A stretch of DNA of 31,611 bases from a virus. The position numbers were made by a program, and so were the translations under genes. Every line of letters begins with the position of its first letter. Positions within the stretch are counted from its first letter, which is position 1. Under the pieces are notes generated by a model, which was not told the origin of the DNA, ran no database searches, and saw only the letters and a list, made by a program, of their open reading frames with translations. Below, piece by piece: positions 2 through 20,500 of this stretch. Where the stretch lies: positions 1-31,611 of IMG/VR virus record IMGVR_UViG_3300004369_000081. One strand, 5' to 3'.

Positions 2-1879
2 GATATATTAGCGTATAATACGTTATATACAACCTACAACATCAATATGGCTTCTAACGAGTTAAATCTCGATACTGCCGTTCTCAGAGATAATATTGTT
101 TCTCACGCAAAAAAACTGGGATATATTCCTGGATCTTATACTTCTTCTAAAGCCGCAATTGACATTACGGTATCAAATTTATCAGCTTTAAATATTGATA
201 GAATTTCTTTAAAATCTGGTCCTATACTATCGACAACATACCAGAAAAAAAATTATACTTTTGTCTCTAAAGAGCCAGTAAATCTTACAGTTGCTTCTGG
301 ACTTAATGAAATAACATTCCGAGACATTGAAGTTGTAGAAGGAACAATATTTACAATTTCTTATACTGTTGATACTTCTAATGAAAATCAGAGATTTATT
401 ATCCCCAACAATTATATTGATGCAGACAGTGTAAAAGTTTCTGTAAAAGCTGATGCATCTGCAACTACCTCCGTTTCTTACCAGAGAAAAAATACAATTG
501 TTGGCATTTCCCAATCCGATACAGTATTTTTTGTAGAAGAAATTCAAGATCAAAAATATGAAGTTATTTTTGGTGACGATGTTATTGGTAGAAAGTTACA
601 AAATGGGGAAATCGTAACCATTGAGTATATAATAACAGCAGGTGGAAATCTTAATAATGTAAAAGAGTCTGCGTTAAAATTTATTGGCACAGTTGAATAT
701 ATTGATAATAATAATGTAGTTGGTAAAATTAGTCTAAGTGATATTAATTTCAGTTTAAACACCGAATTTACTGATGGTGGTTCTGAGTTTGAAAGTATTT
801 CTTCAATCAAATATAGAGCACCAAGATATTACGCCGCACAAGGAAGAGCAGTAACTATTAGTGATTATGAATCACTAATTATGCAATTATATGGTAATGC
901 TGATTTGGTTAAGGTTGTTGGCGGAGAAACTTTAACTCCTCCTCAGTACGGTAAAGTTTTTATTACAATCAAACCAAAAGTCGGTGAAGTTGTAAGCGCA
1001 TCTGAAAAAGCAAGAATTATTACAGAATTGAAAAGTTATATTGTAGGATCTATTACACCAGTAATTAGAGATCCTAGAAAATATAAAATTCTATTGAGTC
1101 CATATTTGGTATATGATAAAAATAAAACCAGAAAAACAGTAGTTGGCTTACAAAAATTAGTAAGAGACTTAATTGTAAACTTTGAAAATTCTGATAAATT
1201 TAAGAATTTTGGCGGAGTATATTCCCAGTCTAGTCTAGTATCGGATATTCAAAATATTGATGAATCAATTACATTTGCAAATATAAAGGTAAAACTTTGT
1301 GTAGAAATTCCACTGGAAATTAATAACAAAATAGAGACCTTATATAAAGGATCCTTTTTCACCAAAATTAATCCAAAGGTTAACGGAAGATATTCGGCAG
1401 TTTCTGATTATTTTTGTGTTCCTGGTTATTCAAAACCTCTATTCCTTGGGGTCCTTTCTTTTGGTAATAGTAATTGTACTATTGATGAAAATATCTACTT
1501 GATTGATGAATCTGGTAACATAATCAGATCTGTTGGTACAATTGATTTTGATACTGGAAATTTCTCATTTTCTGTATCATCCTGCCAAGATACTCCAATA
1601 AATATTTGTGCTATACCTGAAACACCAAATCTAGATGTAGATGAGGAAACTTATCCAGACATCGTGATTGATCAAGTTAGTATTATTGACTTTGGCGATG
1701 AGGATCCAGAAGATCTTGGTCCATTTACAGAAGTTCCTCTTTCTGACCCAACAGGGGTTGATGGAGATCCTGAAGTTCCAGCTGACGGAGATGTTACAGA
1801 TACAATTACTGATGATCCAAACAATATTATTACGATTAACGATTTCACTCCAGAAACAGATCCCAATAAGTGCTCATGA
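2..1879 (+). CDS. 6: Baseplate wedge protein gp6 (5' end outside window)
   Basis: This is the C-terminal part of the T4 gp6-type baseplate wedge protein, which forms the ring around the baseplate hub. The frame is open to the left edge; translation from base 2 reads DILAYNTLYTTYNINM and then ASNELNLDTAVLRDNIVSH, a continuous gp6-like stretch. The first ATG at 47 is therefore internal and the true start lies upstream. About 625 residues are visible. A conserved block around 814-960 (YRAPRYYAAQGRAVTISDYE, then PPQYGKVFITIKPK) fits the baseplate J/gp6 family. The last roughly 85 residues are very rich in Asp and Glu with a single Lys, a tail I do not know from T4 gp6. The stop overlaps the next start (ATGA at 1876-1879), implying translational coupling. 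Identification is confident; the role of the acidic tail is unknown. Confidence 0.9.
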   Translation, partial: DILAYNTLYTTYNINMASNELNLDTAVLRDNIVSHAKKLGYIPGSYTSSKAAIDITVSNLSALNIDRISLKSGPILSTTYQKKNYTFVSKEPVNLTVASGLNEITFRDIEVVEGTIFTISYTVDTSNENQRFIIPNNYIDADSVKVSVKADASATTSVSYQRKNTIVGISQSDTVFFVEEIQDQKYEVIFGDDVIGRKLQNGEIVTIEYIITAGGNLNNVKESALKFIGTVEYIDNNNVVGKISLSDINFSLNTEFTDGGSEFESISSIKYRAPRYYAAQGRAVTISDYESLIMQLYGNADLVKVVGGETLTPPQYGKVFITIKPKVGEVVSASEKARIITELKSYIVGSITPVIRDPRKYKILLSPYLVYDKNKTRKTVVGLQKLVRDLIVNFENSDKFKNFGGVYSQSSLVSDIQNIDESITFANIKVKLCVEIPLEINNKIETLYKGSFFTKINPKVNGRYSAVSDYFCVPGYSKPLFLGVLSFGNSNCTIDENIYLIDESGNIIRSVGTIDFDTGNFSFSVSSCQDTPINICAIPETPNLDVDEETYPDIVIDQVSIIDFGDEDPEDLGPFTEVPLSDPTGVDGDPEVPADGDVTDTITDDPNNIITINDFTPETDPNKCS

Positions 1880-4800
1880 AATTCTTAGTAGACAAAACTG
1901 TAGATCTATCTAATCTTATCGAGAACCAATTTCCTCAATTTGTGAGGGAAGATAGTTCTACTTTTATTGAGTTCATTAAGTCTTATTACCAATCTCAGGA
2001 ATTAAAAAATCAACCTCTTGATATTGCTGAGAATTTAATTGAGTATTATAACGTATCTCATTTTCGAAAATCTGAGTTAATTGAAAACACAACTCTGTCG
2101 GTTAATATTACAGAGACAGATACTACTATTACTGTAGCTGATACAACTGGATTCCCCGAGAAAGGTTATATTCAAATTGATTCCGAAATAATTTACTATG
2201 CTAGTAAAACTAGCACTACATTTGTTAATTGTGTTAGGGGAACTTCTGCCCTTGTATTGGAAAGTATTCCATTTTCTGAAGTACTCTTAAAATCTTCTGT
2301 ATCAGATGTTCATGAAAGTGGTGTCAGTGTAGTCAATATTGCATATGCTTATACCAGTGAGTTTTTAAGAAGAATTAAAACTGAAATTGCTGTAGGTATA
2401 CCAGAAACTTTAGTTGAAGAATTAGAAATCTCTACATTTCTAACCAATGTTAGAACTTTCTATTCTTCCAAGGGTAGTTTAAATTCCCATAGAATTCTTT
2501 TTAGAATTTTATTTAATGACAAAAAAATTCGATTTAAAATTGAGAATAGGGGATCTGGTGCTACTTTAAAAGTAATCAATTTTGACGGAGCTATCGGAAA
2601 CGCTCAAGTTTTATCGGGCGGAAGTGGATATGATGATAGAACAAATCAAAATGGTGACTTATTAAATCCTCCTATTGTAGAAATATTTGGTAGTGGGAAT
2701 GGAATTAATATCGCAAACAAAACAGCGGTAATCAAAGTAACAAAAATTATTAATGGTCGGATTCCAATAGGTTCTACCATTGATTCTTCTTATAATGGTA
2801 TCACTATTACTGATGCTGGACTAAATTATGTTGGTCCAATTACAGCTTTTGTTAGGGAAAAAGATTTTGGTGAAGAAGAGTTAGTTACTACAGTTTCTGG
2901 TAATGGTAGTGGTATTGTAGAGAGCTGGGATTTTAATACAAACGAGTTAACATTAACTAACATCATTGGGTTTTTTAACAACAATGATGAATTGGTATCT
3001 TCTTCTGGAGAGCAAGCGAGAGGATATGTAGATTACTTCGAATTCGTATCTCAAGACCCAGATATAGAATTTCCAAAGGATTATCTTCTCAAGCCATCTT
3101 CTTCTAATTTTGTAGGTAAAAAAATTGCCAGACTAGAAGTAATTTCTGGTTCTCTGGATGAGATCGAAAATGATAAAATCACACCACCAAGTTATCTTAC
3201 TTTAATCCAAAAACAAGATACAATTTTTGGTCTTAAAAATGTATCGATTGAAAGTGGTTCAATTTCAAAAATTGATAACATTGGATATGCTGGTTATGAA
3301 ATTGACATCGATATTAATGACGATTTCAATAACTTATATTTACCAGCATCGACTCAATTAACACATGAATATACTGTTGGTGACACAAAAGTAACGGTCA
3401 ATGATGCTACTGGATTCCCAGTTACCAATGGAATAATTTATATCGATGGATTTTTAGTAGAATATAAAGAAAGAACAGCAAATCAGTTTTTAGATTGTAT
3501 TACGACACAAACGAGCGGTTCTAAGATTGTAAATACAGAAGTAGTGTCTTATGGAAGATATAAGACAAGAAGGCAATATTCTTTATCTGAATATGTAAAA
3601 TCTGGACAACAAAGATATTATGGAGATAACTTATATGAGTCTAAGACAACTGGTAAAACTTCCAGTGTAGATTATCCAACACATAAAATCGGAACCAGAA
3701 AAGTAGGTAGTATTGAATGGAATTATATCGGTGATAGTAAAGTAGATTATTTCCTAACAGCTTTTGTTGGTACTCCAAATGTTACAGCGACTGGTGAGGA
3801 AGGGGATTTATATATTTTTGTTGATAGTGCAAGAAAACTTTCTGTTGGTCAAAGTATTATTGGATCTGGAATTGCTACTGATGCAAAGATTTCATCTATA
3901 AATGGTAAAAAAGTTACACTATCTCTTCCTAATGTCTCCAAAGTTTCTGGTGGATGTATTGCCTCAATTGCTACTGTCAGAGTAGTAGGACTTGTAGAAA
4001 ACATTAATATTGAAAAATCTGGTTCTCTATTCACGGAACAGATCTATGAGTTAGATGATAAAAACTACAAAGATTTTGAAGGAATTGAATATTCCTCTTG
4101 GAATATCAACAGTAATCATATTCTTGATGCCGATGGTGATTATATTGGTGTAACTTCTGTGTATGACAATACAGAAAATAATAATCAGGGAAATGTTTAT
4201 GTATCTTCTTCTGGAATTCCTCCTTATACATCAGCAAAGAATAGAACTTTAAATAATGTTTTTGATGGATATACAAATGCATTTTTAACCAACATAACAG
4301 CACCAATTGACATTGATAGTCTGTTTATCTTTAGAAACGCAGTCATTCAAGATTCTCTGTCAGACTTTAGCATCATAAATGATGTTCTAAACTTTACTAC
4401 AGTTCCTTTACCACAAGAAGAACTTTACATCAGGTACTTTAGTACTCCAGGTCAAGTTGACAGAATTTCTGTATCACAAGGATCTACTACATCTGAAGTT
4501 GTTTTATCTACTACGAATAGTCTAAGTAGAGATGAAATTTTTGTATTTCTCAACGGAGTGCTTCAGGTAGGAAATTCCTTTACTTGGAATGATACTACAA
4601 AAGTAGCAACTTTTGGTTCGCAGATAGTAGATGTAACTACAGATGATATTATCGTATTTTCTATTAATGGTGCTAATGTTTTAGATTCAATCACAACATC
4701 ATCTTCCTTAACTTATACACTGCAAGATGGTGGATCTAATTTTACATCAGCAACTACTGACAGTGTAATTGTTGCGATTAATGGTGTTGTACAAAGACCA

Positions 4801-7800
4801 AACTCTTCATATACTATATCTGGTTCTACCCTTACATTAACAGAAGTTAATTCTGGTGTTGAGTTAACTGTAATAGAAGTTGGGTCTGGTGTTGTTCTAA
4901 CAACCTTATCAACATTAAACGGAATCAATCTAGACAGAAATAACTATAAACTGCAGAAATTATTTAAGAGGATTCCATATCCATCCAGTATTATTAACGA
5001 TAATATAATTAGAAAATCTAAATCTCTAACCCCAGTAGAGACAAAGAAAGCCCTTGGTATTACAATTGATGGTATTCAGTATCAATCTCTAAAAGGTAAC
5101 TCTACTGAATATGGTGCAGTAGAATCTTTAACTATAGGAAATGGTGGAAATTACTTTATTCCATACACAAATTCTGGATCTTTTGATAAATCGAACTATC
5201 CTCAAGTAATCCTGAAGAAAAATGGTGGCGAACAGTCGGATATAGTTATCACAGAAAATATTATTGAAATTGCTGGATCTATAACTAAAATTAATTTTAA
5301 TCTATTTGAACAATCAATTATTTCGAATCTTACTGGATTTACATCAAAACCAAAGATTGAAGTTATAAACAACAACCCATCGAATTCTATAACATCTGCA
5401 GAATTTAGATCTGCTGTATTAGATGTTGGATTTAAAAATGGTAATATTGATAATATTTTAGTATTAGATCCTGGATTTGGATATGTTGAGTCTCCAACAA
5501 TAAGAATATCTGGCGGCGGTAAGTTCACCACATATGATTTACCATTTGTAAATTCTGGTAATGGAGAAATCTTGGTTCAAATGTCTGGACCTATTATTTC
5601 ATCTAAGAGTTCTAGTAATACAATCATATTAACTAATGAACTTGGATCTCAGTTTACTTCAAACCCACTTGTAAGTATCGATGATGGTTCTGAGGCTGTT
5701 ATTACAGTTACTGTTTCTAATGGAAAAATAGTTGCCACTCAAATCTTAAATCCTGGCAAAAATTACCACATTGAACCAGAACTGCAAATCACATCTACCA
5801 ATTTACTTGGCAGCGGTGCTGTCTTGCGTCCAGTTTTAAGTAATGGTCAAATTATTGATGTTATCATCATTAACCCTGGCACTGGTTATATTATACCCCC
5901 GACTATAATTGCAAAAAATATTTCCGTAAATTCTGTTGTTTCTTCGCAACTTAAAAAGTGGACTTTCAATATTGCTAATAGATTTATAACTGGTGTTGAT
6001 ATTTTTGGTGGTTATGTTTTCGACGAACAATTCGGTGACAATTATACTGTAGAATCTTTTACGCCAGATTCTTTGGTTATTAAAGAGACCTTCACTGTCA
6101 ATGATATTGTTGTTGGTATGGAAGTTACTCACCCAAGAATTCCAGTTGGTACTTTTGTTTCTCGGGTCGATGTTGCGACCAGAACAGTCAATCTGTCTAA
6201 ATCTGGATTGAATGTAAATACCGATTTTCTTTTGATTGGTGATAAAGTAAGCATTTTACAAGGTGATAATAGAATCAGAGGTTCTTTAAAAGTTGCAGAA
6301 GTTCTACCAACAACTTTCCCAGAATCTAGATTAAAGTATCAATATTTACAATTAACAAATACCAAGAATTTTGAAAATCACTACGGTATTGTTAGCACAG
6401 AACATTCGAAAATCGTTGGGTGGTCTTATGATGGACATCCAATCTATTGTAAATATGGATATACAAACGCTCTAGACAAAACCTCTGGTATTTCCGAACA
6501 AACATCATCATATAGATTAAAAGGTCTCAGAACAAATGGACCTTCTTTGGTCGATTATCCCATGGGTTCATTTATAGAAGATTATGAGTATATTGAAGGA
6601 CTTGGCACATTAGATCAATATAACGGTAGATTTTCTGTAACCCCAGAATTTCCTAACGGCGCTTATTGTTACTTTATGGTAAGTGAGTATCCTTTTGTGA
6701 TTGGTCCTACTTATTTCTCCGATCCTGATTGCTATAATCTTGGACAGAACAGAACAAATGATAAAATTCCAAGTATACTAACATTAGTTAATGATCCAAA
6801 TAATGATCAATTCCCAGAACAAATAAAGAACGTCAATAAGACATTATTGAAAACCAGTGTCCTGAGAGGTGGTAGTGTAGATTCTATCTATGTTGAAAAT
6901 AAAGGTTCTAATTATAAAACTGGCGACTATTTGGTCTTTGATAATTCCGAGACTTCTGGTTCTGGTGTAGTTGCTTATGTTAGCTCTGTCGAGTCTCCAC
7001 CAGTCATTTCTTCTACAGTTGATAATGACAAAAAAGAAATAACATTTAATTTCTCTGGACCTCATAATGTATCCGAAAATGATGTTATTTACATTGATAT
7101 TAAAAAAGCAAGCTCTAATACTATTATCAATCTTGATCTTCTAACTACGCCCATTTCTACATTAAATAATAAACCAATTTATAGTCTGGTATTAGATAAG
7201 AGTAAATTATATAGATTAGAATTTGGTAGTGCTAGAAAATATAATTTGTCATTTGACAGTCTAAACTTTAATCCATATCACCAAGAGAATATTGTTCTTG
7301 GCAGTGATCACTTCATCATCGATCCAGAAAAAATACCAAGTAAATTATTTGTCCACACAAATACTCTTATTATTGAGTTGAGTGTGGTTACTTCACCTTT
7401 AGTTTCTAGATATGTAGTAAAATCTTCAACTACTAATAGTTTTGTACTTCCTTTAAATGAGAAGATAACTTCTGTTCCTATTAATAGTTTAGATTTTGGT
7501 ATTCGTTCTAGAGGTGCTACAGGACCAATCAAGACCATTAACATAGTTAATGGTGGTTCTGGGTATAAAAAGTTGCCAGCAGTTGTTGGAGTTGATTCTG
7601 AAACTGGTTCTGGTGCTATTTTATCCGCTTCTTCGGAGACAATTGGTTCTATAAAGAGAATTTCTTACGTTTCTTATGGTGATCAATTCTATGGATCTAG
7701 AAATGCCAAAAATTATGTTAAACTTCCAATAACGGTCAAGGTAAAATCCAATTTTACCATAAAAAATATTAAAGTTAAAGACGCTGGTCAAAATTACTTC

Positions 7801-10800
7801 TTAAATCCATATTATAGAATTAATGGACAATCAAATTTAGCTGATTTATCATTTAGATATAGTATTGGTGAAGTGGTAGAGGTTAACGTTAATGATGGTG
7901 GTAGTGGATTTTCTTCTACGCCAACACTAGAATTGTTTAGTCAAAATGGTGGATCTGGCGCTACATTTGACATAGAAATTGAAAGAAGATCTTTAATTGT
8001 TGGTGACACTGTAAGCTCTGGATCTTCCACAGCAAAAATTCTTAATATAGATATAGCATCATCAACTATCGAACTACTTGTTACCAGTGGTGCATTTAAA
8101 GTTAATGACGTTCTATTGAGTTCTGACAACCGTCAGTACGGCACGATTGTGGAAGTTAATACTGCACGTGCTTATGCGAAATCTTCTCCCTATGGAAATA
8201 TTAGTGAAAAATTTATCGGTACAGTTGGTTTTATAAGTGATGACTATCAGAAAATAGAGGATAATCTTTATTATCAAGATTGGTCCTATTCTATTGTAAA
8301 CCAAAGAAATACTAAAGAATGGGGAAAGGAAGTATTAGAAAATACACATCCATCTGGATTTAGATTATTTGGTAAACAAAGACTCCACAGTAGAAAATCT
8401 CTTCTTGGAAGATCTCAGAACATTGTTAGAAGTGCTGTAACTTTCAAGGCTTCTATTTCTAGTTTACTTAACGCATCGGTTAAAACACCTCCATGTAAAA
8501 AACAAATAATTTGGATTGATACATCTCCAAATCCTTATGTTTTATATGATATCATTTATGGTAATCAAAGCGAGGCGTTAGGTCTTGTCATTGAAGTTGG
8601 TGAAAATTACATTATTGTTGATCTTTATGATAAAGAGGTTGAAATTAATGAATTTATTATTAATGTACTAAGAGTTCTACCAATATCTACTACAAGTTCT
8701 ACAGATAAACTTCTTTTGAATGTAAATGGTATCTTACAAGAACCATTTACTAGTTATACAGTAAGCGGTTCAAATATTGAACCATCTTTCCCACCATTCC
8801 CATTAGATGAAATAACCTCTTATAGTTTAACAACTCCATTTACTGATATTACTTCATCTGGTGTTAATTCTGGAAATAGGATTAACTTAACTGTTGACGG
8901 AAATCCTTATAGTGTTTCTGATAGAAATAAATTATTGGTTTCTCTGAATGGAGTCATTCAAAGAAATACAAATCTCACTATTGTTGGTACGAATAATAAT
9001 ATTATTGAATTTGGTACTAGTATTCAAGATACACCAAATTTTGTTTTATATCATCCACAGTTAACTCCTCTATCTTTTACTGGTTCTGCTGGTACTACAT
9101 TTGATCTTGGATTCACACCAGCTGATGATTGCCAATTGTTAATCTTTTTTGTTGGTGTAAATCAGTCTCATTTATTAACAGATTATAGTATTAGTGGTAG
9201 TACAATAACATTCCCCAGCAGTGTTGATCAATCTGAAATTTTTGGGTGGTACATTGACGAGACAGTTGTTTGTGAAAAAATTTCTGTCAGCGGAGTATAT
9301 GACCAACAGGTAAAGGGTAAGAAATTAATTTGTAATGCCGAGAAAAATGTAACTCTCAAGATTTTCTCCGATAATGTCAAAAAACCAAATGGATTCTTTG
9401 AATTAGAAAAAGAAAATCTTGATGGAACTTTATATGTTGACGGAAATAAAGCATATGGTTTTGGATCTAGATTTAAATATTCCAACCCAGAATATTCGAC
9501 AAGTTATGTTGAGGTAATCAATGATATTTCTGGTCAATTCAATGGCTCTACAACCACCTTTGACCTAACTATTAATGCCGTAGATCCATATATCCCAAAT
9601 GATGGCGAAGACTCCTTAATGGTAACACTAGATGGAGTCATCATACAGAAATCTCAATATAGTATTACTGGGTCTCAAATTAATTTTGTAACTGCGCCTG
9701 CTAACGGGGTTGAGTGTTCTATCAGAGATTTTGTTGGTGCATATCAAGCAAACTACAGTACTCGATTGGGAGCAGAGTTAGATCAATTTAATATTTTCAA
9801 TGGTTCTAGAACCAGATTCAATTTATCTGATAATGGAGTTCCAGAAACTATTAATAATAATACAGATGTATTTACTGTTAAAAACAATGTTCTTTTGAGA
9901 CCAGATGTACATCTAAATGCAATCGATTCTAGAACAAATGTACAGCTACAAATTGTATCACAAAATAAAATTGATTATACAGTTCCACCAATAACTACAG
10001 ATGTTTATAAACTAATGTCTTTTAACAGACAGTTAGTTCCTGAAAACCACAGAAACTGGGTTCTAGACAGAAATGAACACTTTGATGGCGTTAGAACTAC
10101 GTTTACTTTACTCCATAGTTTTGACGCAGATTGTGATGATCTGGTCGGTGAAGATCCAAGAGTTGAGAGTTTGATTGTTATCAGAAATGGTGTTTATCAA
10201 TATCCAACAACAGACTACACTCTAATTGATCCAGTAGATCCTAATGATATCAACAGTGGAAGTGGATCTTATAGAATTCAATTCGTCGATCCACCAAGAT
10301 CAACTGAAGATGTATTCATTCTATTCACTGAGGACACTGCTAATTTCCAAGACAGAACAGATGAACTAACTCAAACCAGCTCTACGGTTTTATCTTATAC
10401 TACTGCAATTGCTAATCCATCGACAATGGTTCCATTTGTCTATGTTGATGGTGTATATCAAGATCAAAACTCTTATGTTTGGGACGGTGCCGCAAACACA
10501 TTAACTTTTGTTGGCACTAATTTACCTACACTCGCAACTGATCAGGTTGAGTTTCATGCAAAACTTGGTACTCTCAGACCACAAAATGTTTACACTGACA
10601 TTCTAAATGCCTGGTTGGTTGTACTACAAAGAAATAATCACAATGAAGTTCTTGTACCAACTGTAAATAATACATTTACAGTAACTCAAAGATCTGGTTC
10701 CACAACTATTTCTGGTACTGATGTAGTCAATATTGTCCAACGCAGTGGCACACTGACGATTGGATCTAATCACTACAGAATCACCAATCTAGATCTAAAT

Positions 10801-12897
10801 GCATTTGTAATGCATGATGATCCAGCGAATACTTTCGTTGCATTTGATGGTGTAGTTCAAGAACCTGGAGTTGCTTACGATCATAGTGGCGCTGGAAGTG
10901 CAATTCCTTCATCTACTCTTGGAAACGGACTAACATATGACAATATGTCAATTCCTATGGGAGTTGGATACCTTGCTGCGATTGATATTGTCGAGTTTGA
11001 CGATGAACTCAATAGACAGTATTCCACTGATGAGATCAATCAAGTTTACGATGGATCTAGAACTAGATTCAGACTTCAATTGGATGGAATCAAGTATACC
11101 AACTACACTGCTCATGAAGATATTATCGTGTCTAAGAACAATGTTCTTCTACACCCAGGAGTTGATTATACTGTAACAAATCCAACTGGAGTATTGTCCG
11201 ATCCAACAAAGGGATGTATCGATTTCACCGTTGCTCCTGTAGCAAATGATGATATCTGGATGGTTGGTATGCATGATAATGAACTAATTACCTTAACACC
11301 AGTAACTACACAGATTTACAACACCAGTAGAGCACTTAGTGCTGCAGAACAGGAGTCGATTATCTTTGTTCAGAACGATCATACAAAGTATGGTCTTGCA
11401 AGAGGTGCAGAATTTACTTCTACAACTCAGATGAACTTTGATACCGCAACTACAACGGGTACTCCATTCGCTATTTTGACAACTACGGGTAAAGTTTTGG
11501 ATAGAATCCATACACCATATGATAATTCCAGAACAGAGTTTAATCTCTTCTTGGATGAAGAAAACTTCATTCCATCTGGTTCTTTTGCAAATGATTCTAT
11601 CATAGATCCAAGAAACTTATATGTAACCAAGAACGGTATTATTCTTACTCCGATTATTGATTACAATCTAACTGGAACCATTGACTCTAGAATTATTTTT
11701 ACAACTCCACCAGCACCATCAGACAACATTTTCATTGAAACACATGGTTTAATAAAACAATTAGATTCTGTTGTTGGTAATGGATCTACAACATATAATC
11801 TTACCGATTCTTCTAGTACTTATTATCCAGATGCTCTAATTGGAAGACCAAGAGAACTAGAGAACCAGATTATTGCTGTTAGAAACGGTTTGATTCTAGA
11901 TCCTCTTAAAGATTACTATGTTTACAATGATAAGATTGTATTTACATCTTCCCAAACTGCATCGGATACTATCAGACTTTATGATCACATGAGTCTTGCG
12001 TCTGATATTGAGGTTGAATCTTATAGTCAACAAGTTGATGTTGGTGAATATATTCAGATTCCAGGGGAATCTGAAAGAAGACAGGTTACAGCTGTACATT
12101 CTCCAACCGTTATGGAAGTAACAACTCCAGCCGGTTTGGTTTCTCCATCTGGATTGTCCGCAACGCCAACTATATCCAATGGCAATTTGACTGGAGTTAC
12201 AGTAACTTCTGGTGGTCGTGGTTATCCAAGAAGAATGAAGTTCCGTACATATGGAATTGGTAATAGTGCTTCAGCAAACTCTTATATCGATCCTATTAAG
12301 GGTGGTGAAATTAAAACCAACGTTGTTGTTGATTATGAGGGACACAATCTTGCAAATACGACATTAGTACCAACTTATGAAACTTATGTTGTTAGAGATG
12401 TAGTTTTAAGTTCTAGTAATGTATGTTTTGGAACTAAACTGTCGTCAAATATCTCTGATTCTGATACAACAATTCCTGTTTATGGGACCAGCATGGCATT
12501 TGCAAGTAACATCACTATTACAATTACTTCCACTGGTGGTGCTGGTGCTATTTTACAGCCTTTCGTTGTTAACGGAAGATTGGTCAATGTTGATATTGAA
12601 AATGGTGGGTCTGGATACAATGATTTAGATATAGTATTAACTGTAAATGATGGTGGTGGTAGTGGTGCCGTATTGGAACCAACACTAGATGCTAATGGAA
12701 CTATTACTAATATCGAAATCACCAATGAGGGTATTGGATATGACTCATTTAGAGCATTTATCAACAATGAAGTAATTGAGTATACCACCCACAATTCCAC
12801 AGAATTGAAAGGTGTTTCTAGGGGTATTGCAAGTACATCACCAGCAGCTGCTTCCTCTGATGATAGAGTGTTGTTTGCAGATTGTGAACAACCATAA
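1876..12897 (+). CDS. Giant virion structural protein in the T4 gene 7 slot (about 3673 aa)
   Basis: A single open frame of about 3673 residues between gp6 and gp8, where T4 carries gene 7 (gp7 is about 1030 aa). I chose ATG 1876, which makes an ATGA overlap with gp6, over the in-frame GTG at 1870. The N terminus (QFPQFVREDSSTFIEFIKSY, then FYSSKGSLNSHRILFRILF near residues 195-215) resembles large structural proteins of marine T4-like phages. Visible modules: a 'DTTI-GFP-RG' beta module near residues 78-125 and 499-545 and, split, at the C terminus; about 13 GGSGY-type repeats; a YHYH-like domain near 1515-1612; and about 13 'NG(V)xQ...DY.ISG' modules between residues 888 and 3365. No membrane segment or catalytic motif was recognised. 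From position and composition it is probably an extended baseplate wedge or wedge-to-fibre protein; that role is inferred. Confidence 0.8.
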   Translation: MKFLVDKTVDLSNLIENQFPQFVREDSSTFIEFIKSYYQSQELKNQPLDIAENLIEYYNVSHFRKSELIENTTLSVNITETDTTITVADTTGFPEKGYIQIDSEIIYYASKTSTTFVNCVRGTSALVLESIPFSEVLLKSSVSDVHESGVSVVNIAYAYTSEFLRRIKTEIAVGIPETLVEELEISTFLTNVRTFYSSKGSLNSHRILFRILFNDKKIRFKIENRGSGATLKVINFDGAIGNAQVLSGGSGYDDRTNQNGDLLNPPIVEIFGSGNGINIANKTAVIKVTKIINGRIPIGSTIDSSYNGITITDAGLNYVGPITAFVREKDFGEEELVTTVSGNGSGIVESWDFNTNELTLTNIIGFFNNNDELVSSSGEQARGYVDYFEFVSQDPDIEFPKDYLLKPSSSNFVGKKIARLEVISGSLDEIENDKITPPSYLTLIQKQDTIFGLKNVSIESGSISKIDNIGYAGYEIDIDINDDFNNLYLPASTQLTHEYTVGDTKVTVNDATGFPVTNGIIYIDGFLVEYKERTANQFLDCITTQTSGSKIVNTEVVSYGRYKTRRQYSLSEYVKSGQQRYYGDNLYESKTTGKTSSVDYPTHKIGTRKVGSIEWNYIGDSKVDYFLTAFVGTPNVTATGEEGDLYIFVDSARKLSVGQSIIGSGIATDAKISSINGKKVTLSLPNVSKVSGGCIASIATVRVVGLVENINIEKSGSLFTEQIYELDDKNYKDFEGIEYSSWNINSNHILDADGDYIGVTSVYDNTENNNQGNVYVSSSGIPPYTSAKNRTLNNVFDGYTNAFLTNITAPIDIDSLFIFRNAVIQDSLSDFSIINDVLNFTTVPLPQEELYIRYFSTPGQVDRISVSQGSTTSEVVLSTTNSLSRDEIFVFLNGVLQVGNSFTWNDTTKVATFGSQIVDVTTDDIIVFSINGANVLDSITTSSSLTYTLQDGGSNFTSATTDSVIVAINGVVQRPNSSYTISGSTLTLTEVNSGVELTVIEVGSGVVLTTLSTLNGINLDRNNYKLQKLFKRIPYPSSIINDNIIRKSKSLTPVETKKALGITIDGIQYQSLKGNSTEYGAVESLTIGNGGNYFIPYTNSGSFDKSNYPQVILKKNGGEQSDIVITENIIEIAGSITKINFNLFEQSIISNLTGFTSKPKIEVINNNPSNSITSAEFRSAVLDVGFKNGNIDNILVLDPGFGYVESPTIRISGGGKFTTYDLPFVNSGNGEILVQMSGPIISSKSSSNTIILTNELGSQFTSNPLVSIDDGSEAVITVTVSNGKIVATQILNPGKNYHIEPELQITSTNLLGSGAVLRPVLSNGQIIDVIIINPGTGYIIPPTIIAKNISVNSVVSSQLKKWTFNIANRFITGVDIFGGYVFDEQFGDNYTVESFTPDSLVIKETFTVNDIVVGMEVTHPRIPVGTFVSRVDVATRTVNLSKSGLNVNTDFLLIGDKVSILQGDNRIRGSLKVAEVLPTTFPESRLKYQYLQLTNTKNFENHYGIVSTEHSKIVGWSYDGHPIYCKYGYTNALDKTSGISEQTSSYRLKGLRTNGPSLVDYPMGSFIEDYEYIEGLGTLDQYNGRFSVTPEFPNGAYCYFMVSEYPFVIGPTYFSDPDCYNLGQNRTNDKIPSILTLVNDPNNDQFPEQIKNVNKTLLKTSVLRGGSVDSIYVENKGSNYKTGDYLVFDNSETSGSGVVAYVSSVESPPVISSTVDNDKKEITFNFSGPHNVSENDVIYIDIKKASSNTIINLDLLTTPISTLNNKPIYSLVLDKSKLYRLEFGSARKYNLSFDSLNFNPYHQENIVLGSDHFIIDPEKIPSKLFVHTNTLIIELSVVTSPLVSRYVVKSSTTNSFVLPLNEKITSVPINSLDFGIRSRGATGPIKTINIVNGGSGYKKLPAVVGVDSETGSGAILSASSETIGSIKRISYVSYGDQFYGSRNAKNYVKLPITVKVKSNFTIKNIKVKDAGQNYFLNPYYRINGQSNLADLSFRYSIGEVVEVNVNDGGSGFSSTPTLELFSQNGGSGATFDIEIERRSLIVGDTVSSGSSTAKILNIDIASSTIELLVTSGAFKVNDVLLSSDNRQYGTIVEVNTARAYAKSSPYGNISEKFIGTVGFISDDYQKIEDNLYYQDWSYSIVNQRNTKEWGKEVLENTHPSGFRLFGKQRLHSRKSLLGRSQNIVRSAVTFKASISSLLNASVKTPPCKKQIIWIDTSPNPYVLYDIIYGNQSEALGLVIEVGENYIIVDLYDKEVEINEFIINVLRVLPISTTSSTDKLLLNVNGILQEPFTSYTVSGSNIEPSFPPFPLDEITSYSLTTPFTDITSSGVNSGNRINLTVDGNPYSVSDRNKLLVSLNGVIQRNTNLTIVGTNNNIIEFGTSIQDTPNFVLYHPQLTPLSFTGSAGTTFDLGFTPADDCQLLIFFVGVNQSHLLTDYSISGSTITFPSSVDQSEIFGWYIDETVVCEKISVSGVYDQQVKGKKLICNAEKNVTLKIFSDNVKKPNGFFELEKENLDGTLYVDGNKAYGFGSRFKYSNPEYSTSYVEVINDISGQFNGSTTTFDLTINAVDPYIPNDGEDSLMVTLDGVIIQKSQYSITGSQINFVTAPANGVECSIRDFVGAYQANYSTRLGAELDQFNIFNGSRTRFNLSDNGVPETINNNTDVFTVKNNVLLRPDVHLNAIDSRTNVQLQIVSQNKIDYTVPPITTDVYKLMSFNRQLVPENHRNWVLDRNEHFDGVRTTFTLLHSFDADCDDLVGEDPRVESLIVIRNGVYQYPTTDYTLIDPVDPNDINSGSGSYRIQFVDPPRSTEDVFILFTEDTANFQDRTDELTQTSSTVLSYTTAIANPSTMVPFVYVDGVYQDQNSYVWDGAANTLTFVGTNLPTLATDQVEFHAKLGTLRPQNVYTDILNAWLVVLQRNNHNEVLVPTVNNTFTVTQRSGSTTISGTDVVNIVQRSGTLTIGSNHYRITNLDLNAFVMHDDPANTFVAFDGVVQEPGVAYDHSGAGSAIPSSTLGNGLTYDNMSIPMGVGYLAAIDIVEFDDELNRQYSTDEINQVYDGSRTRFRLQLDGIKYTNYTAHEDIIVSKNNVLLHPGVDYTVTNPTGVLSDPTKGCIDFTVAPVANDDIWMVGMHDNELITLTPVTTQIYNTSRALSAAEQESIIFVQNDHTKYGLARGAEFTSTTQMNFDTATTTGTPFAILTTTGKVLDRIHTPYDNSRTEFNLFLDEENFIPSGSFANDSIIDPRNLYVTKNGIILTPIIDYNLTGTIDSRIIFTTPPAPSDNIFIETHGLIKQLDSVVGNGSTTYNLTDSSSTYYPDALIGRPRELENQIIAVRNGLILDPLKDYYVYNDKIVFTSSQTASDTIRLYDHMSLASDIEVESYSQQVDVGEYIQIPGESERRQVTAVHSPTVMEVTTPAGLVSPSGLSATPTISNGNLTGVTVTSGGRGYPRRMKFRTYGIGNSASANSYIDPIKGGEIKTNVVVDYEGHNLANTTLVPTYETYVVRDVVLSSSNVCFGTKLSSNISDSDTTIPVYGTSMAFASNITITITSTGGAGAILQPFVVNGRLVNVDIENGGSGYNDLDIVLTVNDGGGSGAVLEPTLDANGTITNIEITNEGIGYDSFRAFINNEVIEYTTHNSTELKGVSRGIASTSPAAASSDDRVLFADCEQP
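4540..11965 (+). repeat. About 13 NG(V)xQ beta modules in the giant protein
   Basis: A recurring pattern 'FdGsrT.F.L ... V..NGV.q.P..dY.isG..I.F..aP...D.i' is seen around 4543, 4766, 8720, 8938, 9148, 9617, 9880, 10180, 10435, 10837, 11130, 11625 and 11878. Examples are FLNGVLQ, AINGVVQRPNSSYTISGSTL, TLDGVII, RNGVYQ, KNNVLLHPGVDYT and KNGIILTPIIDYN. The copies are divergent in DNA, so this is an old protein repeat. Between 8700 and 11965 they form a nearly continuous array, probably an elongated beta shaft (inference). Confidence 0.7.
6400..6720 (+). other. YHYH-like domain inside the giant structural protein
   Basis: Residues about 1510-1615 of the giant protein contain GWSYDGHPIYCKYGY, then SSYRLKG, then LDQYNGRFSVTPEFPNGAYC and YFMVSEYPFVIGP. 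This order (DG-PIY-YGY, then LD..NGR, then the aromatic YHYH-position motif, here AYCYF) is what I recall of the YHYH domain, which occurs in bacterial secreted proteins and in marine phage structural proteins. The His positions of the name-giving motif are replaced here. Its function in phages is not established. Confidence 0.6.
12487..12774 (+). repeat. GGSGY repeat pair splitting the C-terminal module of the giant protein
   Basis: The giant ends with a module that begins SDSDTTIPVYGTSMAFASN and resumes at FINNEVIEYTTHNSTELKGV. Between them lie two GGSGY-type units (DIENGGSGYNDLDIVLTV and ITNEGIGYDSF). Elsewhere in this same protein, and in the 2041-aa protein, the DTTI and EI.Y...RG halves are much closer together. 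The arrangement therefore looks like repeat units inserted into another module. Confidence 0.5.
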
Positions 12898-12941: not shown

Positions 12942-14498
12942 ATGCCATCACTAGTTTCTGACAATTTTAGGGTATTTGCTGCTGAGCAGTTTATGGAATC
13001 CCTAGAGGAACCTCTTGATACTGCTGGTAATGCTCTTAGTGATTCCTCTACGGAAGCTTTAAGGGATAGAAGTAAAATTTATCTTTTTATTGGTCGTTCC
13101 CAAACTTGGAATTCTGAAAGATATATTGGACAAGGATTTAACGATATCGATCAAATTCCAACTCCAACCGACTCCTTTGATGAGTTGAGTGAAATATATG
13201 ATGATATGATCGCAATGAAAAGAATTACTAGAGGTGATGTAACTCAAGTAATTCGAAAAAGAACTTGGTCTGTTAATACTCGTTATGACATGTATAAACA
13301 TAATTATACATCGTCAAATCAATCAGCAACAGGTGCAAATAAGTTGTATGACTCGCAGTTTTATGTGATGAATAGCAACTATGATGTCTATAAGTGTATC
13401 TACAACGGAGAGACTCCATCAAATCCAAATGGAGTCATTTCCACCGTAGAACCAACTGGACAACCAACTGCTATCTTTACCACGGCTGATGGTTATAGAT
13501 GGAAGTACATGTATACACTTGGTATCAATGATTTTGTCAAATTTGTTTCCAGTGATTTTATGCCAGTAAAAACTGACGGAACAGTACAAGCTGCTTCTGT
13601 TAATGGCACAATTGAACAAGCAATCGTCCAAAACGTTGGATCTGGAATTACACCTGGAATCTATTATTCACCTGTTTTAGGTGATGGTAGTGGAGCAATT
13701 GTTACATTTGAAATTTCTTCTACAGCACCCACATCTGGTACTATTCTTCCAGATACTGTTGCTTTGTCTGTGGTTGGTAGTGGATATACATTTGGTACAG
13801 TAAACCTCTCTGAATGTTATACAACGCTTTCTGCTGCTCAAGCAAGAACTGCAACCCCAGTTAACTTGAATCAAGGATCTCCATCTATCGAGGCAATTAT
13901 TTCACCCCCAGGTGGACATGGTTCCAATGTGGTTAGAGAATTGGGTGCTTATCGTGTCATGATCAACAAAGCTGTCGAATTCCTCGATGGTTCTGGTGAC
14001 GTTCCTGTTGATATGGAATTTAGAAGATTTGGACTAATTTCCGATCCACAGACAGGAGGTACTGATCTCACATCCAATACTGTTTCTGTGTGTAAGTCGA
14101 TTAAATTTGCTAGTTCGGTGAATGTAAATTACAGTTCTGGGGAAGAAATTACCCAATCTACTACTAATGCAAAGGGTAAAGTAATTCATTGGGATTCTGT
14201 TAATAAGATTCTCAGGTATTACCAAAATGAATATATCTCCGCATCGCAAACCGGCAATCAACAGTACACCCAAGTAAATTTTTCTGGTAGTTCGACCATT
14301 ACTGGAACATCTTCTGGAACTTCTTTACAACCAGACACAACTTATTCTAGTTCCTTAGCTGGAATTACATTTGCGAATGGTTATGCACCTTCTGAAGTAG
14401 ATAAATTTAGTGGAGAAATTCTATACATCGAGAATAGAAAAACCATTATTAGATCCGATGACCAGATTGAGGACATCAAACTCGTTATTGAGTTCTAA
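12942..14498 (+). CDS. 8: Baseplate wedge protein gp8
   Basis: This is the gp8-type baseplate wedge subunit, which as a dimer in T4 joins gp10, gp7 and gp6 in each wedge. The N-terminal part carries KIYLFIGRSQTWNSE near residue 45, matching the T4 gp8 'ITFGRSEPWSS' region, followed by VIRKRTWSVNTRYD. The last 30 residues (SGEILYIENRKTIIRSDDQI and then EDIKLVIEF) align well with the T4 gp8 end (SGEMIYMENRPPIIMAMDQT). At 518 aa it is much longer than T4 gp8 (334 aa). Part of the excess is a central beta region with GSG and GSGY units (about 13630-13790) resembling repeats in the giant and in gp14. A late promoter lies just upstream. Confidence 0.9.
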   Translation: MPSLVSDNFRVFAAEQFMESLEEPLDTAGNALSDSSTEALRDRSKIYLFIGRSQTWNSERYIGQGFNDIDQIPTPTDSFDELSEIYDDMIAMKRITRGDVTQVIRKRTWSVNTRYDMYKHNYTSSNQSATGANKLYDSQFYVMNSNYDVYKCIYNGETPSNPNGVISTVEPTGQPTAIFTTADGYRWKYMYTLGINDFVKFVSSDFMPVKTDGTVQAASVNGTIEQAIVQNVGSGITPGIYYSPVLGDGSGAIVTFEISSTAPTSGTILPDTVALSVVGSGYTFGTVNLSECYTTLSAAQARTATPVNLNQGSPSIEAIISPPGGHGSNVVRELGAYRVMINKAVEFLDGSGDVPVDMEFRRFGLISDPQTGGTDLTSNTVSVCKSIKFASSVNVNYSSGEEITQSTTNAKGKVIHWDSVNKILRYYQNEYISASQTGNQQYTQVNFSGSSTITGTSSGTSLQPDTTYSSSLAGITFANGYAPSEVDKFSGEILYIENRKTIIRSDDQIEDIKLVIEF

Positions 14499-14538: not shown

Positions 14539-17500
14539 ATGCAAAAGACCAACCTAAAACTGGCGCCATATTTTGATGATTTTGATAAGTCAAAGAATTA
14601 CCATAAAATACTTTTTAAACCTGGGCTTCCAGTTCAAGCTAGAGAGTTAACACAAGTTCAATCTGCATTGCAAAATCAGATTGAAGAATTTGGAAATCAT
14701 ATTTTTAAAGACGGATCTGTAGTAATTCCTGGACAGGTTGGTTATGATTTAGAGTATCATGCAGTTTTGGTACAAAATTTAGTTAATGGTATTGAAGTAG
14801 AAACATACAGAGCGTCTTTGGTCGGAAAGACACTTGTAGGTCAAATATCTGGGGTAGAGGGTGTTGTAGTTAATACAATCAGTGTTGCCGAATCTGAAAA
14901 GTCAACCCTAACGTTATATGTAAAGTATACAAAGAGTGGAGTATCTAGTACAGGCAATCAGAAAACCAGATTTGATAATAATGAGATTCTTGTGCAAAAA
15001 GGAACAACAACTCCTTTAGCTATTACAACCCTACAAAATGCGTCAGCTTATACTGGTAGTATTGCTTATATAACTTCTGGTGTCTATTATATTCGTGGAT
15101 ATTTTGTTCAGGTAGATGACCAATTTGTCATTCTTGATCAGTATAATAATAAACCATCGTATAAAATTGGTTTAACTGTAACTGAAGAAATTGTTTCTTC
15201 CAATGAAGACTCAACTCTGTTTGATAATGCAAATGGATCTACTAACTTTGCCGCTCCTGGAGCTGACAGATTAAAAATTTATACAACTCTGTCTAAAGAT
15301 ATTACGTCTTTTTCTGATAATGGTAACTTTATTGAGTTACTTAGACTTAAAGATGGCAATTTAGAAGAAATAGTAGAATCTAGTGTATATAATGAATTAG
15401 AAAGAAATCTAGCAAGAAGAACTTATGATGAGTCTGGTGACTATACAATCAATGACTTCACTATTAAAGTGAAAGAAACTTTAGATGATGGAGAAAATGA
15501 AGGTGTTTATCCAGTAAATTCTGTATTGGAAGATGGTAGAACAGTTTTAAATAGAGTTCCAACTACCACAGATCCAGAAAACTCAATTAATGGTAAGGAT
15601 TACTATACTATTGAGGTCTCTCCTGGTAAAGCATATGTCAGAGGATATGAAATTAATAATGTTGCTAAAAAATATGTTACTGTTCAAAAACCAAGAACAA
15701 GTGTAGATATTAATAATAAAGCAGCAAATATTGATATTGGACAATATTTAACATTTACATCTGCTGTAGGATCTGTAGATACCAATGAACTTCTTTCTTT
15801 AAGAAACTCTAGTAACACAAATATTGGTAAGGCGAAAGCGGTAACAATAACAGGATCTAAACTTTATATTACAGATTTAACAACTTATACATCGATAACT
15901 GTACCAGGAACAACCACTGGTTTGGTTGAAGGAGATTTTATTTTTTCCACCAAAGGGTCTAGAGGTGTAGTTAATAGTGCTTCTGTAAGTGGAAGTAATA
16001 CTATTATTGTTTTGAGACAAACTACTGGTAAATTCCAACAAAATGATGTAGTATCAAATAGCAGAAATAGTATCACATATACCATTTCTGCTGCTACAGA
16101 TTATAATATTAGTCAAATTTCTAATATTATCAACGGTTCTGGATTTACAGCGAACTTTAGTTCACCAAAACTACAGTCACAAAACAAAGACTTATTTGTA
16201 ACTGCTTCAGAACTTCCTGTAAATACTGCATCGGATTTTTCCTATGTTAAGGTTGATAAGGTTTCGAAAATAGTTTCGAACAATGAAGTAACAATCAGTG
16301 CCACAAATAATTTTACTCCTCTAACTAGTGGGTTTACAATTTTATCTTCTGCTGGACAACATACAGCAACAGCGTCAATTAACGGAAATACTTTAGTACT
16401 GTCAAATATCAGTCCAGTTGTAACTGGTTCGGTTGATATTTACTACAAGTTAAGAGTAAATAACACCACAACCAGAGAAAAGGAGAATAAAAAATATAAC
16501 TTCCTTTCGTTACCAAATAAGAAAGATTCTACATTTACAGTCTATGGTAATAGACTGGATGATAAAGAAATCAATTTGAAATTCCCAGATGTATATAAAG
16601 TACATAGAGTACATGAAGCTATCGTACCTGGGGTATCAGACAATGATATGTTTGATAGAGTTTTAATTAATGATGTTAATGGTATTGTAACTGGTGATAT
16701 TTTAAAATTAAATAATGTTGTTGCAAAAGTAATCAGTATTGATGGAAACACATTACATGTAATTTATATCAGCAGTGTTAAGTTTACCGAGGGAACAAAT
16801 TTAACAACACAAGTTGTAGTAATATCTAATCCATCTCTAGTTGGTAGATTTTTAACTGAGGTAGTCCATGGTCAGTATAAAGACATTACTACTAATTTTG
16901 CTCTGAACAAAAATGATACCGATGAAACTTATAGAATTTCTAAGTTAACAAGACTGGGGAATAGACCAACTCCACAAAATAAAGTAACTGTTGTATTTGA
17001 CTATCTTTCCCATTCCCAGACAAATAACGACTTTTTCTCGGCAAATTCTTTTGACTATACTGAAATAGAGTATAAAAATATTCCAAATACCTATAACGGA
17101 TATTCATATACCAATATCTTTGATTTTAGACAATCTGTCACACCTACACAATCAACTGGATTGGGGTCTGTAACTGCTCCATTTGTGTGCAGTAATCCGC
17201 TGTCTGCGTTTGACTTATATTCAAATACAAAATCAGCTGCTCCGTTCCCATATCCATCCGAATATATTAGTTATGACTATAATTATTATTTGGGTAGAAT
17301 TGATAGATTATTCTTGGATAAGAGTGGAGAATTTAAAGTTTCTGTAGGTGCATCTTCTGTATCACCAAACATTCCTATTAACATTTCCAACGCATTGTTG
17401 CTTTTTACACTAAATGTACCAGCGTACTTAAAAGATGTAAAAACTGTAAAAACTACTGCTGAGAAAACAAAGAGATTTACGATGAAGGACATCGGAAATC

Positions 17501-20500
17501 TTGAAACTAGAATTGATAATATTGAATACTATACCACACTGAGTTTGTTGGAATCCGATACTAACAATTTGAGTATTTTAGATTCTAATGGAAATGATAG
17601 ATTTAAAAATGGTTTCTTAGTAGATAATTTTAGGTCTGATAATTTTGCAGCTACAAACAATATTGATTATAAGGTTTCTATCGATACCAATAATGGTTTA
17701 GTTAGACCTTATCCATATATTAATAATATTGGATTAGATTATGATGTTACATTATCTGGTTCCAACGAAACTGTTGGAGAGTTAAGGAAGAAAGGAGACT
17801 TTTTACTACTACCTTACACAGAAGTAACTTATGCTTCTAACCAATATGCAAGTAGAGTAGTAAATCTAAATCCATTTAATACGATTACTTGGGTTGGTGA
17901 TTTCCAAATTTCTCCATCTAGAGATGTTTGGTATGACACACAAAGAACAATTCCAGAAAATGTACCAGAGATTGATTTAACTGGACCAATCAAGTTCCTT
18001 TATGATCGAAGTGGTGCTGATGGCAATCAGTGGGGAAGTTGGAATAATACTGGTTCTGCAAGAACAGGTGGTGGAACAAATATTTTCCAACAAAGAAATG
18101 GTGTAAATAATGAATTTAGTTCTGTAACTCAGAATATTGATGTTGGTGATAGAATTAATTCTTTAGAAAGCATTACATTTGCTAGATCTATAGTAATTGA
18201 TTGTTTATCTTCAAGAATGAAACCAAATACAGAATTGTATTTCTTCATTGATGGTAGAGATTCTAATGGATCAATTTATCCAAAACTCTTTAGGAATGTA
18301 ACAAGAACAGTAAACAGCACCTCTTTTGTTGTTGGAGAAACTATTACATTAGAACCTTTTGATAATTCTAATACAGCATCTTTAAGAAGATTATCCGCAA
18401 CACTAGTCTCCCCTGCTGATTATGATTCCACATTATCATCTTCTTATAGTTCTGCATCTACTGTAATTGCAATCAATAATGTACAGGTTGAAGATGGTAC
18501 GATATTAAATCCCACAAGTCTTGGTAGTAAAATTAAATTTACTGGACAAACATCTGGTGCTATTGCCGAAGTAGAATTAACAAATCCAAGAATCACCACC
18601 GATGATGAGGGTATTGTCAGGGCATTTATTCTATTACCACAAGATACAATTGAAACTGGTCAATCCAGATTTGTACTGACAGATCAAGTTACCAATACTA
18701 CAATTTCTGGTATTTCTGATACTAATGCAGTAGCTTCTTACGATTCGGAAGGTACTCTCTTGGACATTACAAGTTTGAGTCTAGACTTTAAGTTGCCAGT
18801 TATCACAACGACACCAATTAGTGAGACTAGAACGGTCTTTATCCCAGATCCCCCACCACCACCACCTCGTCGTGGAGACCCACTAGCACAATCTTTCTAT
18901 GTTGATCAGCCTGGTGGTATGTTCATCAGTTCTATCGATTTATATTTCCAAAGTAAGGATGATACTGTTCCCGTTACAATGGATATCAGAACTATTGAAA
19001 ACGGACAACCAACAGAAAATATTCTTCCATATAGTACAAAAACTCTAAAAGCATCAGAAGTTTCAACATCTGCAAATGCTACAAGTGTAACAACATTTAC
19101 TTTTGATACTCCTGTATATGTAGCTGAAGGAAATGACTATGCATTTGTTGTCAGGACTAGATCTTTAAATTATAAAATTTGGGTATCCAGATTGAATGAA
19201 GTTGATGTAACTACAAATCAAGTTATTAATAAACAACCCTATCTCGGAAGTTTGTACAAATCTCAGAATATGAGTAGTTGGACCGCTGATCAATTCGAAG
19301 ATATTAAATTTAATATCAATAGGTCTGAATTCTCTGTCGGAACCTCATATAAAGCATCTCTGAAGAATCAAAAAATTTCTACTATTAATCTACCAGCAGA
19401 CTCACTTTTCATGACATCTAATAGTACAACTATTAGAATTTTACATCCTAATCATTGTATGCATACAATCCAGAATTATGTTGATATTTCTGGCGTAGTC
19501 TCTACATCACCAAACGTAAAACTCGTTACCAATATGGGTAATACCCAGACTACTGCGGATACAGTAATTACTTTGAGTGATGGCACATATGTTCCAACAC
19601 TAGTTAATAATACAAATATCAGTGATACAAACTTTGGATATCTCAAAATCGATAATGAAATTGTTTCCTATAAATCAGTAAACGGTAATACGGTTACAAT
19701 TCCTGCTGGTGGTCGCGGATTAAATAATACTGCTATTACAGCACACAATACAAATTCCATAGTCCAAATCTATACGTTAAATGGAATTCCACTGACACAA
19801 ATCAACACCAGACATAAATTGACAAATGTCATTGATATGGATAGATTTGAGATCAGTACCCAGTCAAAAGCAAATAGTACATTGCAGACTGGTGGTGATT
19901 CTATTTTCTCGTCTAGAAATCTACAATACGAGAGTATTACTCCAAGAATTAACAATATTGTTCTCTCTGGAACATCTCTCAATTATAAAGTTAATACTAT
20001 CACTGGTTCTAGTATTTCACAGAAAACAACTGGTACATTTGTGAAATCTGGTGGTTTATCGGTATCCAATTTAGAAATTAATGAATTAGATTCTTCGAAA
20101 GTAATCCTTTCCGAACCAAACCAAACAAATTATTATGGCAGCGATCCTTCTTTCGAATTGGAAGTAGAAATGTCTACTACAGTTTCTTCTATTAGTCCAC
20201 TAATTAATATTTCTGGATCATCTGTCATCACAGCAATGAACAGGATTAATGCAATTAGAGATAATGATGGGGAAGTTGATGTAAACCTGTCTAAGGATTT
20301 AGAACCATCTGGCAGTTCACATGATGCTGTTTATGTAACTAAGAAAGTTAGACTTGAAAATTCTGCAACTTCTGTGAAAGTACTTTTCGATGGTATCAGG
20401 AAACAGGGAGTAGATATTAAAGTATTCTTAAAATATAAGAGAGATGATGAAATTGAAGACTTCAACCTAACAGAGTATGTTGAAATTCCATCTGTAAATT

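Follow-up and report, generated by a model that had tools for sequence, protein, structure and literature searches.

Why should one GGSGY-type repeat unit recur in virion proteins that belong to unrelated families, and what might it do there? Marine T4-like phages rank with the most abundant of all viruses, and most of their very large virion proteins lack annotation. The window analysed here, meaning the whole stretch of 31,611 nucleotides, is a 31.6-kb segment of a marine T4-like myovirus held as an IMG/VR record. A sequence-only reading of it had noted the unit about 13 times in a giant protein, six times in gp14 and again in gp8, and had suggested that a repeat without a described name invades surface loops of virion proteins.

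The window opens with gp6 (2-1879), which is followed by the giant protein (3675 aa; 1870-12897, plus strand) in the T4 gene 7 slot, with gp6 on one side and gp8 (12942-14498) on the other. The giant's counterpart in the same gene slot of phage Syn19 is Syn19_088. Next come a VrlC homologue of 2041 aa (14539-20664), fibre-type proteins, gp13 and the 527-aa neck protein gp14 (25344-26927, plus strand; PF11649, E 1.2e-28), and after gp14 lie gp15 (26927-27991) and other genes. The closest isolate to the gp14 core in a search of a phage collection was Methylophilales phage Melnitz-3, at 51%.

Three of the neighbouring genes deserve mention for their own sake. The VrlC homologue is 43% identical to Syn19_092 across its N-terminal part. 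VrlC has been read as a replacement for gp7 in a paper on pelagimyophages (PMC7029224); since the homologue adjoins gp8 here, VrlC and the giant of the gp7 slot are separate genes in the window. One fibre-type protein (21501-24311) contains six DNA repeats of 162-165 nt at 22314-23261, which are 67-79% identical and encode a unit of 54-55 aa (NNLDVDGDVNIDGGDLTV). The third, gp15, carries at aa 210-348 a C-terminal module running from NTVTLASHGFITGDKVTY to YYIIKINDDTFRLAKS, which is lacking from T2 gp15 and also matches the baseplate proteins of phrog_2885 and phrog_32294; judged by these matches, it is a second module common to virion proteins.

The repeat unit and its copies in the window

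The unit has the form GxVxxIxVxxxGxGYxxxPxVxIxxxxxxGAxAxA, with a period of about 38-39 aa. Two units make up a domain: the functional domain is a pair of ~38-aa units, about 76 aa in all, and a single GGSGY repeat is half of it. We detected copies with two profiles. The first was built solely from the six gp14 copies and reached up to 10.0 bits on the giant protein, against 1.4 bits for the best of 100 shuffles and no score at all on reversed proteins. The second drew on 606 units, taken both from relatives and from outgroups, with the window left out. It recovered all six gp14 copies, as they had been counted from the sequence, at 23-46 bits. In the giant it found 14 stretches, which score between 3.3 and 22.9 bits; the highest of 200 shuffles came to 6.0 bits, a level that ten stretches surpass, and three or four are marginal. 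Across the unit profiles, reversed proteins gave at most about 3 bits. The earlier figure of about 13 giant copies was thus a fair one, and the nine giant positions that had been named all fall on GGSGY-type units. An unguided search for DNA repeats independently grouped five giant copies with two gp14 copies in one family, D3, at 61-70% identity over 44 nt.

The giant copies, all on the plus strand, are scattered along the protein. A worn pair lies at 2587-2838, with marginal units at 2587-2643 (3.3 bits, containing an exact GGSGY) and 2797-2838 (4.1 bits). Four units follow at 5440-5910, namely 5440-5523 (22.9 bits), 5644-5691 (5.9 bits), 5722-5817 (8.8 bits) and 5845-5910 (15.2 bits), and a single unit of the GxNYxxGD type lies at 6871-6963 (11.0 bits); both stretches contribute to D3. 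Three more occupy 7528-7965, at 7528-7617 (10.2 bits), 7756-7824 (7.0 bits) and 7867-7965 (16.7 bits), and a partial unit, GNLTGVTVTSGGRGY, is found at 12181-12225 (6.3 bits). Some of the worn copies may be mere structural filler.

The last giant pair, within 12502-12750, is nested in another beta module (units 12574-12669 at 7.9 bits and 12697-12747 at 9.8 bits). This host module, recognizable by DTTITV..GYIQID..VNCVRG, is uninterrupted at giant aa 85 and 506, and only its third copy, at the C-terminal end, is split by a GGSGY pair. Read directly from the sequence, strands two and three of the unit come first in the insert and strand one comes last, so pairs also occur in a shifted register. 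Two other features of the giant were seen along the way: a YHYH domain (PF14240, E 4e-32) at aa 1507-1611, nt 6388-6702, and several copies of a second repeat type, NGVxQ..xYTVSGSxIxF.

The gp8 pair (aa 222-290; 13605-13811, plus strand) is divergent, too worn for the 606-unit profile, which missed it in a single-sequence search. Compared profile to profile with hhalign, gp8 and gp14 pairs match at E 5e-7 to 2.7e-9 over 58 columns, and phrog_438, the PHROG profile of gp8, matches the gp14 repeats at aa 190-266 (E 1.5e-8), which bears out the copy read there by eye. The pair sits between parts that can be aligned with T4 gp8 (aa 41-193 and aa 480-518). It has the identical site in all gp8 relatives examined, and no empty site was seen among the close ones. 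More widely, PHROGs of several structural genes (gp14, gp8, gp5 and tail fibre) include the repeat, though it had gone unrecognized in them, and match one another via it, and the shared pair explains such false links between families.

Glycine-rich beta repeats with low-complexity G/S/T composition might come to resemble one another by chance, with no common origin, and the window does hold other beta repeats. We consider this highly improbable: shuffled sequences stay below the scores of the better copies, reversed proteins score next to nothing, the match with gp8 is position-specific, and whole pairs are inserted in tail tube and sheath proteins (see below) at 32-45 bits. Convergence is largely refuted by these comparisons for gp14, the giant, tube and sheath, and for gp8 the argument rests on the profile evidence. 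Homology thus extends across gp14, the giant, gp8, tube and sheath, and the observation that the unit crosses unrelated gene families holds. The definition of the domain as two units with a period of about 38-39 aa fits all six gp14 copies and the ten giant copies above the shuffle maximum.

Gain and loss of pairs in gp14

The window gp14 consists of a T4-like core (aa 1-185), two insertion sites and a conserved C-terminal tail; T4 gp14 aligns solely to its aa 5-166. Site 1 holds one pair (25905-26144, plus strand; units 25905-26027 and 26028-26144). Site 2, between GTFEFGERVHGT and GKVARYDVTNKELEL, holds two (26235-26705, plus strand; units 26235-26345, 26346-26465, 26466-26582 and 26583-26705).

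Relatives with 70-88% core identity form a ladder of lengths: ~292 aa with no pair, 366-374 aa with one, 443-447 aa with two and about 530 aa with three, and some hold further inserts beyond the pairs. We used this ladder because local matches in gp14 end early, which makes the parity of unit counts taken from them unreliable. Counted as units at site 1 plus site 2, the combinations 0+0, 2+0, 0+2, 2+2 and 2+4 all occur, and the sites are therefore filled independently: neither is filled in L076, site 1 only in L070 and L039, site 2 only in L043 and L054, and both in L077, L030 and L037. Site 2 contains one pair in most relatives. At the DNA level, L060 has the site 1 block that L043 and L054 lack, in genes that are otherwise readily aligned. 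On the tree of gp14 cores, site 1 requires two changes, site 2 one and the total copy number seven, and the loss of site 1 in L041-L065 falls inside a clade of carriers. Comparison of these sequences indicates that gp14 gains and loses whole pairs, with clean empty sites left in relatives. The earlier reading had named two outcomes that would count against it, copies no more alike than random beta repeats and identical copies at identical sites in all relatives. Neither was observed: the copies score well above shuffled or reversed sequence, and in gp14 the relatives differ in both copy number and site. The giant and gp8 copies stay in the same places in close relatives.

How recent is this spread? 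An active mobile coding element, such as a homing or retro-type cassette now moving among structural genes, would account for the many unrelated genes that serve as carriers and for the existence of both empty and filled sites. The divergence of the copies argues strongly against it. Between the window and L008, L006 or L015, gp14 units at the same position share 65-90% identity, whereas mean unit identity is 37% within gp14, 30% within the giant and just 28% between gp14 and the giant. DNA identity between genes is confined to the 44 nt of D3, and the giant units stay in register in a relative, L086, that is 71% identical over 3312 aa. In the window, neither a nuclease nor a reverse transcriptase happened to be noticed. 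The contrast between 28% across genes and 65-90% at orthologous sites, together with giant and gp8 copies kept in place, shows nothing that would point to a recent transfer of copies from gene to gene. We rejected the active element as scarcely credible, the copies being old and divergent. On the sequence comparisons, the spread is best described as old, occasional domain shuffling, with occasional gain and loss.

Carriers in other phages and in bacterial genomes

The clearest insertion elsewhere is in a lambda-type tail tube. In Pseudomonas phage PseuP_224, this protein is 241 aa long and contains a pair at 35 and 45 bits; set against the 165-aa tube of SC_8_H2H8, to which it is ~79% identical where alignable, it has a clean insertion of ~76 aa. 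In T4-type sheaths, those of Stenotrophomonas phage Smp14 and Xanthomonas phage X1 have a pair at one site and no insert at the site of domain I, and the sheaths of DLP_6 and Mosig show the opposite pattern. No copy was found in an IMG/VR set of sheaths near Mosig. Further carriers include jumbo phage Atu_ph07, which has an array, and a YadA-type phage protein.

Distribution differs from phage to phage. In Syn19, just three genes have units, each of them encoding a virion protein (Syn19_088, Syn19_090 and that of the YadA type); every unit lies on the sense strand, and gp14 has none. Pelagibacter phage Mosig has units in gp15, where they flank another inserted stretch, and not in gp14. We observed in the same Mosig gp15 (L172, 15945-17543) that the two GGSGY units are split by an insert of ~210 aa, concanavalin-like (LamG) by eye. 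The T2 region from gene 3 to alt contains no copies.

Bacterial genomes were scanned with the consensus sequence of the pair as the query. Of the first 585 candidate stretches, 258 encode a relative, and these are spread across many phyla. Exactly two units were present at 43 of 80 loci, a count that the query favours, being itself a pair. The carriers, named from reading their sequences, include SusD-like lipoproteins (L267, L320, L336) and secreted proteins. Some carrier contigs are prophage or phage, and by the same means we recognized the pair in a P2-type sheath (L264), lambda-type tubes (L265, L306, L330), a T4-type gp8 (L314) and a VrlC-like protein (L304). No copies were found in the plasmids searched. 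The pair is not specific to virions, for bacteria from many phyla have it in SusD-like or secreted proteins. The proposal that a repeat invades virion surface loops therefore stands as regards insertion, with clean empty sites; current mobility, restriction to virions and a single unit as the inserted element do not stand.

A proposed decoration domain and comparable known systems

AlphaFold modelled gp14 aa 181-480 with pLDDT 90-97 and three strands per unit, and the gp14 core poorly; the gp8 pair is beta-rich at a pLDDT of about 90-95. The pair is accordingly predicted to be a compact, six-stranded beta domain. From these models and from relatives, we expect it to be exposed on the window virion. 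With moderate confidence we propose that the pair is an accessory, outward decoration domain for surface contact, its fold and exposure being predicted and its binding role argued by analogy with gp18 domain I and with the Ig-like domains of tail tubes. An accessory role agrees with the finding that close relatives may either have the pair at a given site or lack it there.

Under this proposal, each pair would have entered an exposed loop as a whole and left the fold of the host protein undisturbed. Pairs would decorate the neck (gp14), the baseplate wedge (gp8) and the giant protein of the gp7 slot in the window phage. There they might bind weakly to cell-surface or extracellular glycans, dock the fibres of the phage itself, or do both, and the effect of each contact would be multiplied by the symmetry of the carrier, 6-fold or higher in copy number.

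The pair might instead be a structural spacer or cement that stabilizes neighbouring virion subunits and binds nothing outside. It occurs in several load-bearing rings (neck, sheath and wedge), the constancy of the gp8 site is what a structural part would show, and a review offers stabilization as one role for added sheath domains (PMC9230969). We judge such a role unlikely, though worth keeping in mind, as gp14 relatives function with neither, one or both sites filled and bacteria have the domain too, in SusD-like and secreted proteins, which are not parts of any virion.

If the pair is a decoration domain, its placement at a non-essential site opens a direct test of what such domains do for a phage. 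As one inserted domain, it accounts for much of the length variation of gp14 and for part of that of gp15, the gp7-slot protein and the sheath. Its profile is an annotation aid absent from current libraries: no family in Pfam or NCBIfam covers the repeat, and a literature search for GGSGY or GGSGYT found nothing. A sequence search of the PDB gave no useful match for the gp14 repeats and noise only for the consensus pair. The earlier statement that the unit has no described name is thus upheld in these sources, with the addition that at least one probable relative has a solved structure (PMC13317679).

Among known systems, VrlC and the two-layer baseplate of marine T4-like phages (PMC7029224) concern the same region of the virion. 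VrlC is a whole protein, whereas the pair is an inserted domain, found in the neighbours of VrlC and in the VrlC-like protein from a bacterial genome.

Another likeness is to T4 gp18 domain I, which takes no part in contacts within the sheath, projects from it and binds the retracted long tail fibres (PMC3004832). Fold searches were made with whole-protein models. Domain I (PF22639; 3fo8) was the sole PDB match to the gp14 repeat region among the matches listed, and those listed for the gp8 model were T4 gp8 and unrelated barrels. Residues 191-266 of the gp14 model superpose on 99-187 of the gp18 chain (Z 4.9, within the range of common arrangements; 73 residues, rmsd 2.6), and the profile comparison pairs gp14 residue 192 with residue 100 of T4-type gp18, which is the register of the fold match. 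The profile score was 16.7, and of 200 profiles with shuffled columns, two came out as high. Among the collected ORFs, the domain I profile scored best in the Atu_ph07 array (E 5.5e-4), with several of the next matches in gp14 units. The Pfam model of domain I stayed below its cut-off, reaching E 0.05 in one of 23 members, and the Mosig-type sheath domain I showed no relation to the pair (P 0.39), though the T4-type one aligns. Both domains are inserted and, going by the model of the pair, six-stranded, domain I protruding and about 90 aa long; domain I differs in having an extra helix, and its sequence relation to the pair is weak. The evidence is suggestive of a relative, less certain than the following one.

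Domain D3* of Dpo31, the tailspike of marine podovirus Carin-1 (residues 434-536; PDB 28lx, 28mg, 8ck1), is described as inserted, protruding and Ig-like, and as distantly similar to sugar-binding domains in a DALI comparison (PMC13317679). Both GGSGY-type units that we found in Dpo31 lie inside it (E 0.036 in a search of the whole PDB; 20.2 and 9.1 bits on two printed stretches), and by this sequence likeness D3* is probably a relative of the pair. The parts of that paper drawn on here label the domain Ig-like, mention neither the repeat nor its wide spread, and concern a single podovirus tailspike.

Promiscuous domains added to virions are already known, and the present sequence family appears, within the scope of our searches, to be undescribed. 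The Ig-like domains of phages (Big_1, Big_2, FN3) occur on unrelated virion proteins, are exchanged between phages and are present or absent among relatives (PMC8718954; for sheaths, PMC9230969); on tubes they protrude, and weak contact with carbohydrates has been proposed for them (PMC8718954). The pair resembles them in being variably present on several unrelated virion proteins. It differs in consisting of two nearly equal units marked by a GGSGY/P.V.I signature and in being usually internal rather than C-terminal, and none of the Ig-family models (a class that includes Big_1, Big_2, FN3 and I-set) run on 23 members scored above its curated cut-off (best Big_7, E 0.0096 in one of the 23, and Big_12, E 0.22). 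We can only tentatively suggest a wider view, in which one two-unit superfamily, including gp18 domain I and Dpo31 D3*, has moved between cellular surface proteins and virions and forms a second, non-Ig class of promiscuous decoration on neck, sheath, tube, baseplate and tailspike. The best reading of the comparison is that the pair works like the promiscuous Ig-like domains of phages, yet belongs to a separate sequence family.
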